DNA from: a bacterium
GTDB taxonomy: Bacteria; Patescibacteriota; Saccharimonadia; Saccharimonadales; UBA4665
Reading direction: 5' to 3'
Assembly (NCBI GenBank): GCA_021809645.1
Contig: JAJZKE010000003.1
Coordinates: forward strand, 1 to 49,416
Length of the DNA stretch: 49,416 nt
Shown here: positions 14,837-47,171 of the stretch, one piece after another
Numbering within the stretch: the first letter of the stretch is position 1
How the letters are laid out: every line of letters starts with the position of its first letter
The notes under the pieces: model-generated
Databases searched by the model: none
Told to the model about the DNA's origin: nothing
What the model saw: the letters and a program-made list of their open reading frames with translations, nothing else
Translations under genes and position numbers: made by a program

Positions 14837-15230
14837 TGGTGGAGCTGCCGGCGATTGCGGCCGGGTCCGCTAGTTTATCTTGATTAGTCTTCTACAGGTT
14901 TAGTCTATTTTTAATGTCAGATATGGCTTTTAAATAGACAAACTGACCATATCCTAAGCCCAGATCTTAGGAAATACTTAGGGCATTAGTACTTCAGCGC
15001 CAGAGAGATATAAAACACCTATTAACTACCCTGGATCGTTAATAGGCATTGCTCCTAAATTAAAGCAGGAGCGTAAGAACGAGGAACTAAGTTAGCGATA
15101 GCATCGCGAACATTAGCAGCTACGTTTTTAATCTTAGAAATTGCATCTAAAAAATTGTTGCCTATAACGCTGACAAGCGACCTGCTGATCTAACCGATAA
15201 AGTCCAACGTCGAGCTTAACATTCAGCCCC
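14837..15230 (-). ncRNA. ssrA: transfer-messenger RNA (one-piece tmRNA)
   Basis: 5' GGGGCTGAAT...CTCGACG and 3' CAGCTCCACCA form a 7-bp acceptor stem with encoded CCA; internal tag ORF; hairpin CCTATTAAC/GTTAATAGG and pseudoknot-compatible pairs (GCCC/GGGC with CCTAAG/CTTAGG; ATATGG/CCATAT with GTCTATTT/AAATAGAC); terminator downstream; TATAAT upstream (15241-15246). Confidence 0.93.
15055..15162 (-). other. tmRNA proteolysis-tag reading frame (predicted GNNFLDAISKIKNVAANVRDAIANLVPRSYAPALI*)
   Basis: Open frame inside ssrA from a plausible GGC resume codon to TAG just before the downstream hairpin. Confidence 0.7.
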
Positions 15231-38940: not shown

Positions 38941-40233
38941 TTATTGTTGAGACCAATAAGACGAATTAACACTCTGTTCAGGAGATTCCCTAGGTACTAC
39001 ATTAGTTGACGTCGTTTGGTTTGGATTAGATGATTGATCTACGTTCGGTCGTACTATAGTGGGTACAACTAGACTACCCACTTTAGGCAAATTGGGTGAT
39101 AATTGTCTTGGCTGAAATTGGCTAGAAGATGCTTGATTAGATGTCATTACAACTTCGTTGTTAGTAATCGGTATAGGGAGGTCATTTAAAGAATTAGATG
39201 GTGGCATTATTTTTAATTTATGCTTATCTCTAAAACGCCAAAAACCAATACCGCCAAATAGTAAAACTAATATTATGATGGCTGGGATAACGACAGTAAG
39301 GGAATTAAAACTTTTAGCTAAACGAAAATTAACTGGTTTATTATTTCCGGCTATTATTGATAATTTAGAATTAGTAGTTACATCGCCTGGGCGAATAATT
39401 GTTATTGTATTTAATCCGGTATGAACGTTGCTAAAAATAACTTGACCAGCACTATTTGTGTAACGAATTAATGTTTTATCGATTATAACTTTAGCATTGG
39501 CTATTGGCTGTCCATGACTGTTCGTTACGATAATTGTTATATTCCCGAACGGTGGATTTTCAGCAATAGTTGTACTTGTTGGTGTGCTAATTGGTGTGTT
39601 CTTAGCAGTTGAACTTATTGGAGCCGTGGTACCGCCTTTATTAGCTATAACCGGAGTAGAGGTAGGAGTAGGAGTATAGCTAGAAGTTTGATGCGGAGAG
39701 GAAGTAGAAGTCGGAGCAGGCGGAGGTAATGGGTTGCTTAAAGTAAAGCTAGCCGACGTTAAGGCTCCGTTCCAGACACTATTTTCATAATTATTTTGAA
39801 TGTCTGAAGAAGAAGTAATACTAATAGATGTTGATCCAGCGGCTAATACGGTAAAATTAACTTGAGCTACAGGATAGGTACCACCGCCAACTGGGTTAGG
39901 TGAAGATGCACAAGAGACTTCTACTGATCCACCACCGCCAGTTTGCTGAGCACATAGGGTAAAAGGACTACCCGATAACGTAAGACTGTTATACCTTAGG
40001 TAAGTACTATTATATGCTAGATAAGCCTGCACTCCTTGAACATTATCACCACTAGAACTTGTTTCTGTAATATTAAGAGTAAAAGAGTTTCCGGTCACGT
40101 AGCTGCCACTTGAAGGATAAAGAGAAAAATAAGCATCACCAGCAGCCATAGAAGGTACAGTAGTTAATGCTAAACCTATGCTTAACATTATTACTATAAG
40201 ACTAATTAGACTTTTTATTTTATAGTGCTTCAT
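38941..40233 (-). CDS. membrane-anchored surface protein: cohesin-like domain, S/T/P linker, carboxypeptidase-regulatory-like domain, TM, cytoplasmic tail
   Basis: Signal peptide; DAYFSLYPSSGSYVTGNSFTLNITETSSSGDNVQGVQAYLAYNSTYLRYNSLTLSG...VAQVNFTVLAAGSTSISI is cohesin-like; GNITIIVTNSHGQPIANAKVII...VFSNVHTGLNTITI; TM LTVVIPAIIILVLLFGGIGFW. Confidence 0.75.
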   Translation of the reverse strand: MKHYKIKSLISLIVIMLSIGLALTTVPSMAAGDAYFSLYPSSGSYVTGNSFTLNITETSSSGDNVQGVQAYLAYNSTYLRYNSLTLSGSPFTLCAQQTGGGGSVEVSCASSPNPVGGGTYPVAQVNFTVLAAGSTSISITSSSDIQNNYENSVWNGALTSASFTLSNPLPPPAPTSTSSPHQTSSYTPTPTSTPVIANKGGTTAPISSTAKNTPISTPTSTTIAENPPFGNITIIVTNSHGQPIANAKVIIDKTLIRYTNSAGQVIFSNVHTGLNTITIIRPGDVTTNSKLSIIAGNNKPVNFRLAKSFNSLTVVIPAIIILVLLFGGIGFWRFRDKHKLKIMPPSNSLNDLPIPITNNEVVMTSNQASSSQFQPRQLSPNLPKVGSLVVPTIVRPNVDQSSNPNQTTSTNVVPRESPEQSVNSSYWSQQ

Positions 40234-40251
40234 CTTGATATATCTTTATCA

Positions 40252-40419
40252 TTATATTTTATAACCGTAATTTTGAGCTAAAATAATTAGATCAGGTAAC
40301 CCTATAATTGACCCACCGGTAATATTACCCTGGGCATAGCCGCCAGGCTTACCGTAATTTTGAGCTAAAATAATTAGATCAGCCAGCCCAACTTCGGAAC
40401 CAGAATTAAAATCACCATT
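40252..40419 (-). other. dockerin-like duplicated F-hand segment
   Basis: Two repeats ending GLADLIILAQNYG / GLPDLIILAQNYG at the extreme C-terminus. Confidence 0.72.
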
Positions 40420-43400
40420 AGTAATATTAATATTATAGTTAATTGAACTAGTATTGCCTTGATTGTCTTTGGCAATAATTTCAACATTATAAATACCGTC
40501 GGCAAATTTAGTCGTATTTAAATTAAAATCATAAGGTGGAGAAGTATAAGTTTGTACAACTTGACCATTAATTAAAAGTTGAGCTTGAGTAATAGTATTG
40601 GTTAAGCTTGAATTTATTGTCGTATTAACCGACCAATGACCATAAATAGACTGATTATTGGTTATTGAACTAGTATTAATAGTCGGGGCTGTTCCAATGC
40701 CAGATCCAGGACCATAGGCTTCAACGTCGTAAATAGAAGTAAGATCATTGCTTGTCCCCATTTGCGGCCAAAAACCAGGCGGCAAGCCATTACCGTAACC
40801 AGAATAATCGATTTGCATATTTGTTATTTCGATTTGACTAACCGTCTGAGGTGTAAAAGTAATTAAATTGTTTCGGTTATAATACTGATTGGTAACTGTA
40901 GCAACAGTATTGAAAATACCATTACCACTATTAACTTTGACTTCATAACCCCTCAAACCCGTTACACTTGATCCGATACCTGTACTAGAAATAAAAACTC
41001 GATCAATTGTAACTGGACTTTTTAGGCTAATAGTCAGCGTTGGATTATTATCAGCATAGGTGGCCGACCAGACATTACTGCCTTGCCGTCCACTACAAAT
41101 TAAATTATTACCTCCAGCATCATCGATGCCATAGAGAACAACATTAGGATTAACTGTTGTTCCATTTGAACATTCATATGAGCTCGAAGCAGTAGCACTT
41201 GCCCCTTGGCTTACTAAGGCATAATTTGTACCATAACTTTCAGCAGCTTTAATAGTTAAATTTTGTCCGTTCGGGATACTAATATATTGGACTTGACCAG
41301 TTAAAGTTAACATCGAATTGCTGCCTAGGGTAGAGCTATCGCCGTATTCAGAAGTAATACTCATTGTACCCCCGCCTGATAAGGTCGGTACAACATTAAC
41401 ATTGTAATTATCAGACCATATAGCAACAACATCATTATTATTAGTAGCAGATGGTCCGTAAAGTGCAGCAAATGTATGTGGCGTACCGGTTGATAACCAA
41501 TTCATAAAAGTTCTACCACCTAAATTCGCTTGATAGTTAACAGCTGCTAATCCGCCAGGATTTAAAATATTCTGGGCTCCACCCAAAAGTTCCCAATATG
41601 TCCCATTTACTTGATATTGACCACTGTTAAAAAAATTATTATATCTATTGATTCCATCTGATTGATATAAAATCATTTTAGTCACCAAAAGATCACCTTG
41701 ATTATAATAATTATATGGGCTTGCAAGAGTATTATTCCAAAAACCGCTTTCGGTATCATAAATTGGACCACTATATCCTTGAGAAGTCAGATAAGTTTGT
41801 AAAGCCTGAATCTGTCCTGTTTCGCCAGTATTATTGTAAATTGAAGGTATTATATTGCCCTGCTCTACTTCAGATCTATTCCAACCGGTATAACCGTGAA
41901 AAGCTACAATATTTAAATAATTTAATGCACCTGCAGCTACATATTGAGAATAATTAGAAACTGAATAATTTTCATTGGAGATACCAATGACTTGATCACT
42001 GCTAGACACACTTTTAACTGCGTTATAACAAGGTTCTAGAGCATTAGTAACATAACTAGCTGCTGAACTAAAACTATTATTATCAGGTTCATTCCAACAC
42101 TCCCAGTCAGTAATTTCAGGAAATTCAGCAACTACCAAACTCACTAGTCGTTGCCACTGTCCTGAAGAAATGGCATTTTGATCAAAAGTAGTCCCAGTTC
42201 CTAACTGAAAGTCATAAACAATACCGTCTTGTTTGGCGAGTGAAGCGGCAGAAGAAATATCATTAATCATTGAACTTGGACAGTTTAGTGTCGTTGATGA
42301 CGTAGGAGTAGTTATTCCAGGAAAGCAAGAATCAATAGTATAACTTGAACGATATAGCCTTTGACCAAAATCATTGGCTAGAGTTATACCTGAAGTATCA
42401 CTACCTGAAGGTAGGCTAGCAGGATTAAAAAATGAATCATTAGACGCCCCGATCGTATAATCAGTACATGCCGCACCGACTACAGTACTTCCCTGATTCA
42501 AAATAACATTAACTTGATATACGCCTGGGTTTGCTGCCGGCAGGGTCAATGGCACATTAGCTGTATTATTGACATAGTCTGAAGAATTAGATGGTATAGA
42601 GAAAGAAATTGGAGTACCAGTTTGATTAGACATTATTTGTTGTATGCTCGATATGGTATAAGTACCACTAAATTGGCTAGCATTATTTTGCCACCATTGA
42701 TTGAAATAAATGCTGACACTCGGTGTTGTTCCAGCTGGAAAATAATTACTAGAACTAGCCGACGTTGTAATGCCAGCACCTAATCCTAAATTAAAAGGCA
42801 CACTTTGAGGTGCGGCTAAATAATCCTCAGCAGTAGTAACCGGAACATCAATCAGTGCATTAGGTGAACTATATGGATTTTCACCGGCATAATAAATATT
42901 GCCGTTAACAACTACTAAGGTTGGGTTTGGATCAGGATCTTGCAGCGGACCTCCTGCTCCATAATCTGCGCCCATTGTTCCTAATAAACCTCCACTTGAA
43001 TTAAAAAATGCTACACTTCTATTAAAATATGAAGTTACTACTATATCGCCATTGGCCATAATATTGGCAGCGGTAGGCGTAAACCAACTAGTACCTGATG
43101 ACCCAGCACTCATATAAAATGTTTCTGTTGTTGCTGTTGAATTCCAAATCTCTATAGTGCCATTATTAGCCATTACGACTAAATCATTATTGTAAGATAA
43201 GGCATTCGTAACAGTGTTGCCAACAATGTTATTTGTCCCCATATTGGACCCATTGGCAGCATTAAAAGTTTCAGAATTACTACTTAAAGTAGCAGCAATT
43301 CGCTCTACACCGTTACTATCTACATAACTATATAACCCCCCCTCTATAAGACCAGAAGTGTATGTCGCCCAACCAAGAGTGGCGGAAGTATCTCCGGGTG

Positions 43401-43941
43401 ACCATAGCCACTGCATAACTGCACCACCAGCACTACTATCAGCATAGGTTCCAATATATATATTACCGCTTGCATCTAGAGCAAACGGCGCAGAAGTAGA
43501 CTGGCCCTGATATGCGGCAGGTATGTTAATTGTAAACGAATTAATTAAACTATTCGTCGTGGCATCATAAACATAAAAGGTTGGAGAAATACTGTTTCCA
43601 TTTTGATCAATATACCAACGCGGATCCTGTCCAGAACTGCCGGGCCAATAAAGATAGCTATATATGCTACCGCCACCTCCACTAGGTGTAATAACGCTAG
43701 TAAAGGCGGGACTCGGTAAGGTTCCGGTGTAAGGTGCTTCATCACTTAATTGACGAACACCGCACACGGGAACGGCTGGTGTGGTAGGTATTTGTTGAGC
43801 AAAAGATTTAGGAGTAGACCGAGGCAAAATAAATATACCAATTACTGCTATCATTAGACAGATTATTAGTTTAAACACTGTGTGACGTATTTTTATCCCC
43901 AGTCTACTAACAAACTTTTCAAAAACTATAAATTTTTTCAT
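40252..43941 (-). CDS. large secreted multidomain protein: N-terminal propeller-like region, clan GH-A/GH39-like TIM-barrel, discoidin-like domain, Ig-like domain, C-terminal dockerin-like repeats
   Basis: Signal helix; DWECWNEPDNN and YDTESGFWNN as GH-A-like acid/base and nucleophile motifs; discoidin-like NPTLTISLKSPVTIDRVFIS; Ig-like; C-terminal GDFNSGSEVGLADLIILAQNYG...GNITGGSIIGLPDLIILAQNYG. Confidence 0.78.
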   Translation of the reverse strand: MKKFIVFEKFVSRLGIKIRHTVFKLIICLMIAVIGIFILPRSTPKSFAQQIPTTPAVPVCGVRQLSDEAPYTGTLPSPAFTSVITPSGGGGSIYSYLYWPGSSGQDPRWYIDQNGNSISPTFYVYDATTNSLINSFTINIPAAYQGQSTSAPFALDASGNIYIGTYADSSAGGAVMQWLWSPGDTSATLGWATYTSGLIEGGLYSYVDSNGVERIAATLSSNSETFNAANGSNMGTNNIVGNTVTNALSYNNDLVVMANNGTIEIWNSTATTETFYMSAGSSGTSWFTPTAANIMANGDIVVTSYFNRSVAFFNSSGGLLGTMGADYGAGGPLQDPDPNPTLVVVNGNIYYAGENPYSSPNALIDVPVTTAEDYLAAPQSVPFNLGLGAGITTSASSSNYFPAGTTPSVSIYFNQWWQNNASQFSGTYTISSIQQIMSNQTGTPISFSIPSNSSDYVNNTANVPLTLPAANPGVYQVNVILNQGSTVVGAACTDYTIGASNDSFFNPASLPSGSDTSGITLANDFGQRLYRSSYTIDSCFPGITTPTSSTTLNCPSSMINDISSAASLAKQDGIVYDFQLGTGTTFDQNAISSGQWQRLVSLVVAEFPEITDWECWNEPDNNSFSSAASYVTNALEPCYNAVKSVSSSDQVIGISNENYSVSNYSQYVAAGALNYLNIVAFHGYTGWNRSEVEQGNIIPSIYNNTGETGQIQALQTYLTSQGYSGPIYDTESGFWNNTLASPYNYYNQGDLLVTKMILYQSDGINRYNNFFNSGQYQVNGTYWELLGGAQNILNPGGLAAVNYQANLGGRTFMNWLSTGTPHTFAALYGPSATNNNDVVAIWSDNYNVNVVPTLSGGGTMSITSEYGDSSTLGSNSMLTLTGQVQYISIPNGQNLTIKAAESYGTNYALVSQGASATASSSYECSNGTTVNPNVVLYGIDDAGGNNLICSGRQGSNVWSATYADNNPTLTISLKSPVTIDRVFISSTGIGSSVTGLRGYEVKVNSGNGIFNTVATVTNQYYNRNNLITFTPQTVSQIEITNMQIDYSGYGNGLPPGFWPQMGTSNDLTSIYDVEAYGPGSGIGTAPTINTSSITNNQSIYGHWSVNTTINSSLTNTITQAQLLINGQVVQTYTSPPYDFNLNTTKFADGIYNVEIIAKDNQGNTSSINYNINITNGDFNSGSEVGLADLIILAQNYGKPGGYAQGNITGGSIIGLPDLIILAQNYGYKI
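40264..40382. repeat. 32-nt exact direct repeat (40264-40295 and 40351-40382)
   Basis: accgtaattttgagctaaaataattagatcag occurs twice with an 87-nt period (29 codons). Confidence 0.95.
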
Positions 43942-44956: not shown

Positions 44957-45378
44957 ATCTTAATCGGCAGTATAGTGACGGAATCTATACTAAACGTCGA
45001 ACCATTTTTAACCACATTAATATTGAAATTAAATTTCTTGTTTAAATTATGATCCACTAAACTGCCTACTATATCAATACTGCTGCTTGAGGAAATAAAA
45101 TTACTGTAATTAATACTAAGATTTTTACCTTTAAGTCCATATAACTTATCTGAAAACAATATATAAGGATTCTTGGACTGAAGATTTTTATCAGTTAGCT
45201 GATATGCAGCTTTAAAGTTACCACTGTTGGCATCAGCAAAGAAATTTTGAACTTCTTGACGTTGATAAGCAGCGTTAGTAAACCAGAAATACTTATTATG
45301 TCCAATAACTACAACAACTGATATAACAACTAATGCGACCAAGCTAATGATGAACGAAGGTTTTTTTATAAATTTCAT
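44953..45378 (-). CDS. hypothetical membrane-anchored protein (DUF4878/NTF2-like look)
   Basis: N-terminal TM then NFFADANSGNFKAAYQLTDKNLQSK; overlaps the upstream gene by 1 nt. Confidence 0.6.
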   Translation of the reverse strand: MKFIKKPSFIISLVALVVISVVVVIGHNKYFWFTNAAYQRQEVQNFFADANSGNFKAAYQLTDKNLQSKNPYILFSDKLYGLKGKNLSINYSNFISSSSSIDIVGSLVDHNLNKKFNFNINVVKNGSTFSIDSVTILPIKI

Positions 45379-47171
45379 TAAAGACCTCCAGGAACAGTTA
45401 TTGAACCAGATAGAGTTGCTGGTGGTGGACAGGTATGGCTAGAATATGTAGCCAAGTAGTACCAAACATTTTCGCCGACAATACAGTTATTGTTATTTAA
45501 AGGACTACCTAGATTACCACTTATATTCCGATCGACAAGCTGTTTAAATACAACAACTGCTCTACAAGTTCCTGAACCGAAGTAACCAGTAGCGTTAACC
45601 CTATAATTGTAACTATTGCTTATAAAAGATGCCATTAGTAAATCCTGTAGGGCAATAATGCATGATCCTTTTTCAAAAGGTGATGTGTAATTAAGGGTAA
45701 CGTTATATGGAACTATTCCCTTCTGACAACGTCCAATACTAGCCAATGTATTTGAACTGCTAGAGGCACTGCTGCTGTTTGAGCTACCTGCATTATTATT
45801 ACCACCACCGACATAAATTGGCGCAGGAATTGCGTACGATCCACCCCCTCCGCTAGGGCTAGAAGTGCCCCCTCCGCTAGGGCTAGAACTATGACCTCCA
45901 ACAGGATTAGATGCATATGTTCTAACTACAGGAGCAGGCTTTACGCTGTAAAATATTTGTGATGTTGCGCAAATTGCAGCTTCTACTGAAGAACATACTC
46001 TATATGTTAGTGAGTCTCCGCCACTATAACCCGATGTTGAATTATAGGTAACTACACCACTAGATGAAACTGCCGCACTACCATGTGATGGATCATTGAC
46101 TATCGACAACGATGAAGCTAATGGATTATTAGCTACACCAGCAACAACATTAGTTGATACTGATTGGCCACTAACAACAACAGCACTTCTGTTTACTAGT
46201 GATGGTGGTGGTGGCGTGTATTGAGGTCTACCTTCGTATTGTGCATCTCCAAATGAAAATATTCCACCATCGGCGGCAGCTAACCAGTAACCCCTGTAAT
46301 CTGGTGTATGGGTTATACCAACTACAGGTGCATTTAGAGGTTGACCTCCCATTGATCCATAGAATGGTGCACCGTAAGAGAAAACGCCACCATCAGACCC
46401 CACTAACCAGTAACCTCCTCCTGGAGGACCGGCAGTAATGCCAACGATATTGCTTACACCTGTTGGACTACCTCCCTTATACAATGCATCACCATAAGAG
46501 TACACTTGACCATAATTATCTACTAGCCAATAACCATTTCCACTTGGGGTAGCAGCGATACCTACAAAATGCCCAGTGTAACCACTTGGGCTACCTCCTA
46601 GATATGGAGCACCACCAAAAGTATAAATCTGACCCGTTGAATCTAGGATCCAATAGCCACCTGTTGAAGAAGCTGCTATACCCACTACGCTACCTGTATG
46701 TGGCATAGGTGCCCCATTATTGTTATTCATACCACCTGCATATCTAGCACTTCCAAAAGCGTAAACTGCTCCGTCAGCGCCTACCATAAAATACCCTGTA
46801 TCTGTACCATTGCTAATTTGATCCGCAATACCGACAATTGGAGCTGATAGATTTCCGCCGAGGTTACCTAGAGAACCATGAAATGCCGAGCCACCATAAT
46901 TAAAAATACCACCATCTGAAGCTGCTAATACGTACCCTGTACTACTGCCACTATCCACAATCGCAACAGGTGGAAAGTTTAGTTTTACCATGGGTGCATC
47001 AGCAAACGAATGCAAAATTATACCAGTACCTATAGCAACAACTACTATCGCCACTATTAATAGTTGAACTTTACTAAATTTGAAGTTCTTAAAACCAAAC
47101 GATGCAGATTTTACCTTATATGAATTAGCTCTTGCCTTTGTTCTTGATTTAGTTTTTTTATTTGTTGTCAT
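45378..47171 (-). CDS. surface protein: six propeller-like GYWLxxxDGGIFxYG repeats, cadherin/Ig-like domain, S/G linker, peptidoglycan-binding-like domain
   Basis: Six internal repeats read directly; NPLASSLSIVNDPSHGSAAVSSSGVVTYNSTSGYSGGDSLTYRVC; C-terminal LQDLL...GYFGSGTCRAVVVFKQL. Confidence 0.75.
   Translation of the reverse strand: MTTNKKTKSRTKARANSYKVKSASFGFKNFKFSKVQLLIVAIVVVAIGTGIILHSFADAPMVKLNFPPVAIVDSGSSTGYVLAASDGGIFNYGGSAFHGSLGNLGGNLSAPIVGIADQISNGTDTGYFMVGADGAVYAFGSARYAGGMNNNNGAPMPHTGSVVGIAASSTGGYWILDSTGQIYTFGGAPYLGGSPSGYTGHFVGIAATPSGNGYWLVDNYGQVYSYGDALYKGGSPTGVSNIVGITAGPPGGGYWLVGSDGGVFSYGAPFYGSMGGQPLNAPVVGITHTPDYRGYWLAAADGGIFSFGDAQYEGRPQYTPPPPSLVNRSAVVVSGQSVSTNVVAGVANNPLASSLSIVNDPSHGSAAVSSSGVVTYNSTSGYSGGDSLTYRVCSSVEAAICATSQIFYSVKPAPVVRTYASNPVGGHSSSPSGGGTSSPSGGGGSYAIPAPIYVGGGNNNAGSSNSSSASSSSNTLASIGRCQKGIVPYNVTLNYTSPFEKGSCIIALQDLLMASFISNSYNYRVNATGYFGSGTCRAVVVFKQLVDRNISGNLGSPLNNNNCIVGENVWYYLATYSSHTCPPPATLSGSITVPGGL

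Follow-up and report, generated by a model that had tools for sequence, protein, structure and literature searches.

Coupling of cohesin and dockerin domains is a textbook feature of cellulosomes, and both domains also occur outside cellulosomes, as in Archaeoglobus fulgidus and in the glycosidases of C. perfringens. Scaffoldin-like cohesin and dockerin proteins have been described in ANME without cellulose use (PMC9012536), cohesins and dockerins outside cellulose use in Ca. Stygibacter (PMC8542988), and dockerins in Omnitrophota (PMC10066038). Within the CPR, a report on Shapirobacterales describes expressed cohesin and dockerin genes, read there as a cellulosome (PMC9123182). A study of the epibiont Southlakia epibionticum places the dockerin protein SEML1_0315 among the essential envelope proteins, and its authors speculate on host glycans (PMC10633639). 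How CPR bacteria with reduced genomes fix and choose the proteins of their host-contact surface is a largely open question, and the gene pair described here bears on it.

Layout of the two-gene locus

The window, i.e., the whole 49,416-nt stretch of DNA analyzed here, carries two adjacent ORFs on its (−) strand. The upstream gene encodes a 1,229-aa protein and the downstream gene a 430-aa protein, with 18 nt from the stop codon of the first to the ATG of the second; on re-checking, these ORFs, their strand and the gap matched the initial annotation exactly. The features of the two genes are as follows.

40252–43941 (−): dockerin-bearing cargo gene (ORF, 1,229 aa, modular, secreted)
42886–43200 (−): beta-propeller-like stretch, residues 248–352 (phmmer against PDB, TRIM2 NHL domain, E = 1e-7; NHL of TRIM2/3)
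41212–42444 (−): glycoside hydrolase clan A/GH39-like region, residues 500–910 (weak Glyco_hydro_39, E = 0.044, below cut-off, plus motifs)
42082–42105 (−): WECWNEPD motif with E618 (sequence)
41737–41760 (−): YDTESGFW motif with E731 (sequence)
40813–41091 (−): F5/8 type C module (discoidin, NedA-like galactose-binding), residues 951–1043 (PF22633, E = 1.8e-6, above cut-off)
40480–40686 (−): Big_7 Ig-like module, residues 1086–1154, directly before the dockerin (PF17957, E = 2.7e-5)
40264–40422 (−): dockerin, two F-hands, ending 3 residues before the C-terminus (profile A2, E = 1.3e-18; phmmer to 2y3n_B)
38941–40233 (−): anchored cohesin gene (ORF, 430 aa, membrane-anchored)
39730–40146 (−): cohesin domain (profile A1, E = 5e-40; Foldseek TMt of 0.70–0.82 to several solved cohesins)
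39541–39729 (−): S/T/P-rich linker (sequence)
39319–39540 (−): CarboxypepD_reg-like beta-sandwich stalk, residues 232–305 (PF13620, E = 4.6e-7, just under cut-off)
39244–39300 (−): C-terminal TM helix, residues 312–330 (hydropathy 2.71; K/R-rich right after)
38944–39243 (−): predicted cytoplasmic tail, 100 residues (topology after the TM helix)

The 430-aa protein thus runs from a signal peptide through the cohesin, the S/T/P linker and the CarboxypepD_reg-like domain, which is present in relatives too, to one TM helix and the tail. The helix at residues 312–330, with basic residues just after it, agrees with the membrane anchoring proposed earlier for this protein. The only hydrophobic stretch of the 1,229-aa protein is N-terminal (residues 16–44), with no later TM segment by hydropathy. 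No Pfam family was found in its N-terminal 450 residues, the propeller-like stretch at residues 248–352 included, and its first 900 residues had no match at E = 0.001 in 98 relatives. The Ig-like module and the dockerin are kept together in relatives. The initial annotation had overlooked this module and the F5/8C module, as well as the loss of Ca2+ ligands in the second dockerin repeat.

The 1,229-aa protein had been called glycosidase-like, a description supported only by the WECWNEPD and YDTESGFW motifs and the weak GH39 match (E = 0.044): for residues 500–905, phmmer against PDB gave nothing useful, and an NCBIfam search was also empty. E618 (WNEP) and E731 (DTESG) lie 113 residues apart and would form the catalytic glutamate pair of the GH-A-like region. 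Judging from these motifs, the protein is probably a GH39-like surface protein and a putative glycosidase. A CBM_19 match (E = 0.0026, residues 627–670) was rejected, as it is below its cut-off and falls inside the presumed barrel.

Profile searches found one dockerin and one cohesin in the window genome, which is 91% complete, so that further genes could be hidden in the missing part. With one of each, the anchor here is 1:1, and the term "scaffold" used in the initial annotation is too strong for this genome, multi-cohesin proteins being found in some relatives. The nearest relative within the genus, a genome that is 87% complete, yielded neither a cohesin nor a dockerin gene in the profile search. 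Promoter and terminator scans at the locus returned about as many sites as expected from shuffles. The G+C content of the locus (0.36–0.40, compared to mostly 0.30–0.34 around it) was considered as a sign of transfer, but the neighboring 45–46.5 kb is equally raised, and no such origin is claimed. Near the pair, at 45378–47171 (−), the window encodes a 597-aa protein with GYWLV..DGGVFSFG-type repeats, Big_9 and a Gly/Ser-rich part, which is likely another surface protein. A tmRNA gene lies at 14837–15230 (−) (Rfam RF00023, 66 bits).

Identity of the cohesin and dockerin domains

Searched singly, the window domains gave marginal matches. Pfam Cohesin (PF00963) matched residues 47–153 of the 430-aa protein weakly (E = 0.04; 14.6 bits versus a cut-off of 24.1) and the isolated domain at E = 0.0011. 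The 1,229-aa protein, searched alone with Pfam, had no Dockerin_1 (PF00404) match; its best single dockerin match was the solved B. cellulosolvens dockerin 2y3n_B (phmmer, E = 0.0022, over residues 1175–1226). A direct search of the window genome with Pfam Dockerin_1 and Cohesin found nothing at E = 0.001. Since the direct search missed this divergent pair, profiles were built from relatives and iterated over 98 related genomes searched for cohesin and dockerin loci, which yielded 40 cohesin ORFs and 35 dockerin ORFs.

An alignment of 36 of these cohesins matched about two dozen PDB chains, nearly all of them cohesins, with 2vn5 of C. cellulolyticum as the best hit (E = 5e-9). A 34-member dockerin alignment likewise matched solved dockerins, the best again being 2y3n_B (E = 6e-13). 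When the members were tested one by one, Pfam Cohesin was found in 33 of 36 and Dockerin_1 in 33 of 34. The predicted structure of the window cohesin (pLDDT of ~94) has the beta-sandwich (jelly-roll) fold of cohesins, and its top Foldseek matches are cohesins (TMt up to 0.82). At the other end of the pair, two F-hand repeats, as in a dockerin, occupy residues 1176–1226 of 1,229, and this is the duplicated C-terminal segment as quoted in the initial annotation. That annotation had named the two domains cohesin-like and dockerin-like and proposed an HMM search, in which the window copies alone stay under the Pfam cut-offs while the alignments of their relatives match cohesins and dockerins. Together with the AlphaFold/Foldseek cohesin fold, these profiles of relatives (E = 5e-9 and 6e-13) uphold both assignments; the single-sequence evidence is marginal, and it is the relatives that make the identity firm. 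On profile and model grounds, we identify the window domains as a cohesin and a degenerate type I-like dockerin.

Linkage and topology across relatives

The main test proposed earlier for the pair was whether the two genes co-occur in relatives, and they proved linked far beyond chance. Among 393 genomes of the order Saccharimonadales, a cohesin was found in 82 to 83, a dockerin in 77 and both in 63, and in 59 of these 63 a cohesin and a dockerin lie within 2.5 kb of each other. Dockerin is followed by cohesin on one strand, as in the window, in 39 of the 59 pairs, the gap from domain to domain being mostly about 100 bp; in 11 close pairs of the order, the two are on opposite strands. Order-wide co-occurrence gave a Fisher odds ratio of 70 (P = 1e-41), a figure that ignores phylogeny and is inflated because the genomes are not independent and some of them supplied seeds. 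A CPR-wide sample of 333 genomes, which included few seed genomes, contained a cohesin in 138, a dockerin in 146 and both in 108 (Fisher P = 3e-27, which also overstates the case), and at least 40 of the genomes tabulated have a close pair. In the control genomes, Dockerin_1 was found in 2 of 14 and Cohesin in 1 of 14.

The proteins also follow a topology rule. In 44 of 45 distinct dockerin-only ORFs, the dockerin lies no more than 13 residues from the C-terminus, and no TM segment lies beyond residue 60 in any of the 45. For cohesin ORFs with a complete C-terminus, a TM anchor is present in 50 of 61 lacking a dockerin and absent from 9 of 10 carrying one (P = 2e-5, which ignores phylogeny). 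By these counts, the proteins mostly carry either a TM anchor or a dockerin plug and seldom the two together. Proteins with one to three cohesins and a dockerin of their own stand beside an anchoring single cohesin in L063, L060, L062 and L101 (in L063, three cohesins and a dockerin in one protein, then the single-cohesin anchor gene). Such cohesin proteins with a terminal dockerin look like adaptor scaffoldins.

The cargo varies while the cohesin-dockerin coupling persists. In relatives, it includes polysaccharide deacetylases with CBM4_9, FN3/Ig arrays, beta-helix proteins, a sortilin/BNR-type propeller and subtilases, and catalytic domains are few among 20 such cargo proteins. Genomes of genus g26 (L063; G183, G201) carry 9 to 10 cohesins, some in three-cohesin proteins with a dockerin. 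One Saccharimonadia genome, G040 (L057, L105 and other contigs), has ten dockerins and two cohesins and may be a one-anchor, many-cargo system.

Some loci have a less recognizable neighbor. In family f35 of the order, C-terminal dockerins sit on subtilases (Peptidase_S8; L111:7711–9174, L119:139–2106 and L120:7020–8975), and the next gene in L119 and L120 encodes a small, beta-rich protein with a signal peptide and a TM segment; no cohesin match was detected in this protein, which may be a cohesin that has diverged strongly. L115:7295–12602 and L116:6118–10946 encode proteins of 1,100 to 1,270 aa with a C-terminal dockerin (and Listeria-Bacteroides repeats in L115), each followed, in the layout of the window, by the gene of a divergent partner, a 490-aa protein with a signal peptide and a TM segment in which Pfam detected no cohesin. 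At L117:1–14236, a 2,649-aa protein that combines 18 cadherin-like domains with a terminal dockerin precedes two weakly cohesin-like proteins.

Dockerin recognition residues

In type I dockerins, each repeat touches the cohesin through its loop positions 10 and 11. The window dockerin has L-A at these positions in one repeat and L-P in the other. Across 34 dockerins, positions 10 and 11 were identical between the repeats in 66% of cases, compared to 23% after shuffling (none of 5,000 shuffles reached 66%). Positions 2, 4 and 8 showed no excess repeat-to-repeat agreement in the same set, and a recent duplication alone is therefore insufficient to explain the agreement at 10 and 11. Between neighbors, cohesin similarity tracked the similarity of the dockerin recognition residues (29 pairs; partial r = 0.45 after correction for the other dockerin positions, 0 of 5,000), a correlation to which shared phylogeny may contribute. 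No clear set of cohesin columns emerged when covariation with dockerin positions 10/11 was computed column by column (top partial r = 0.21), and this result carries no weight in the argument.

At the Ca2+ loop positions 1, 3, 5 and 12, repeat 1 of the window dockerin reads D-N-G-D and repeat 2 N-T-G-D. The second repeat is without most of its Ca2+ ligands, so that intact ligands are not found in both repeats as they mostly are in relatives, and because of this degenerate site we call the window domain dockerin-like. Given that sequence, one of the two binding modes may dominate. We also modeled dockerin and cohesin as one chain by in-frame read-through, with three stops read as residues. In the fused window model, the dockerin reached a pLDDT of about 85 and the cohesin about 94, with a whole-chain pTM of 0.64; a fused model of the L098 pair had good domain folds and the same pTM (0.64), a value that argues neither for nor against the interface.

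A probable cell-surface docking pair

Taken as a whole, the two genes very likely form a cell-surface docking pair in which an anchored cohesin displays a dockerin-tagged protein. The downstream gene would supply a receptor that carries one cohesin and is fixed in the membrane by a single C-terminal helix; the beta-sandwich stalk and the S/T/P linker would keep the cohesin away from the membrane. The upstream gene would supply a secreted multi-module protein that has no anchor of its own and ends in a dockerin. After export, this dockerin would bind the neighboring cohesin and so keep the cargo on the cell surface, where its F5/8C and GH39-like parts could meet glycans of a host or a matrix, binding and probably cleaving them. 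Such a pair might serve in host attachment.

The dockerin could instead pair with cohesins on other cells or in other proteins, as a between-cell adhesin, with the neighboring cohesin capturing foreign dockerins. The lifestyle of Saccharibacteria relies on contact with other cells (PMC10633639), and 61 of 139 dockerin domains have no cohesin within 2.5 kb (some of them lie on short contigs), G040 being one example. However, the conserved tandem order, the co-divergence of neighbors and the presence of one of each in the window genome favor self-pairing, and we consider docking between cells unlikely. That the domains do not dock at all and are merely structural, i.e., that the F-hands form a Ca2+ cap, the sandwich is an adhesion module and the linkage marks a surface-protein locus, is a very improbable account. 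It would fit the degenerate second F-hand of the window, the pTM of the fused model and the fact that many beta-sandwich modules look alike, but it sits poorly with repeats that agree at the cohesin-contact positions and not at neutral ones, and both the strong linkage and the TM-or-dockerin rule would be expected of a docking system.

A true multi-enzyme, cellulosome-like scaffold for polymer breakdown has in its favor the proteins with one to three cohesins and a dockerin at the four loci named above (L063, L060, L062 and L101). We rate it as extremely improbable for the window, since the genome as assembled has one cohesin and one dockerin, there is no CBM2/CBM3 scaffoldin, and few of the 20 cargo proteins have catalytic domains.

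As a probable cell-surface docking pair, the locus represents a linked 1:1 socket and plug found in about a sixth of the sampled Saccharimonadales and well beyond, and would give a concrete, testable surface-display system. It provides a partner hypothesis for the essential dockerin protein of a genetically tractable epibiont (PMC10633639), and the pair family is a new source of natural cohesin-dockerin specificities. More tentatively, and with the odds somewhat against it, the membrane cohesin could be a general socket across the CPR for exchangeable effectors on host-dependent cells (adhesive arrays, deacetylases, glycosidases and subtilases), a swap of cargo changing the partner cell or glycan. 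If so, the essential Southlakia dockerin protein would depend on such a membrane partner.

Comparison with known cohesin-dockerin systems

The clostridial type I pairs (C. cellulolyticum CipC, C. thermocellum and A. cellulolyticus) belong to the same domain families by profile and fold and, as here, combine an F-hand duplication with matching positions 10 and 11 and a C-terminal dockerin on the cargo. In contrast to the multi-cohesin scaffoldin with CBM3 of clostridial cellulosomes, anchored by SLH or sortase, the system described here has a single anchored cohesin held by a TM helix, with receptor and cargo in adjacent genes at 1:1 and a cargo that is mostly non-catalytic and adhesion-type. 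The window genome, with its one cohesin, lacks the several cohesins of a cellulosomal scaffoldin, and no CBM3 or cellulase families were found in the window pair or in the 20 cargo proteins of relatives. Closer in design are the anchoring scaffoldins OlpA and OlpC, in which likewise one surface cohesin holds a dockerin protein directly, but through SLH repeats instead of a TM helix with a CarboxypepD_reg, FN3 or Ig stalk. The type II X-dockerin dyads of CipA and ScaA share the Ig-like module right before the dockerin and kept together with it; the module there is X and here Big_7.

Compared to the non-cellulosomal systems of Archaeoglobus fulgidus, ANME, C. perfringens and Ca. Stygibacter, the CPR pair stands out as a linked unit that is conserved across a phylum with ultra-small genomes and that obeys a clear rule of topology. 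The passages on cohesin and dockerin genes in the two CPR accounts include neither a linked cohesin partner nor a general layout (PMC9123182, PMC10633639), and we found no description of a linked cohesin-dockerin pair in CPR in the open-licence literature. The domain families are therefore known, and what is new is their linked 1:1 arrangement and its CPR context.
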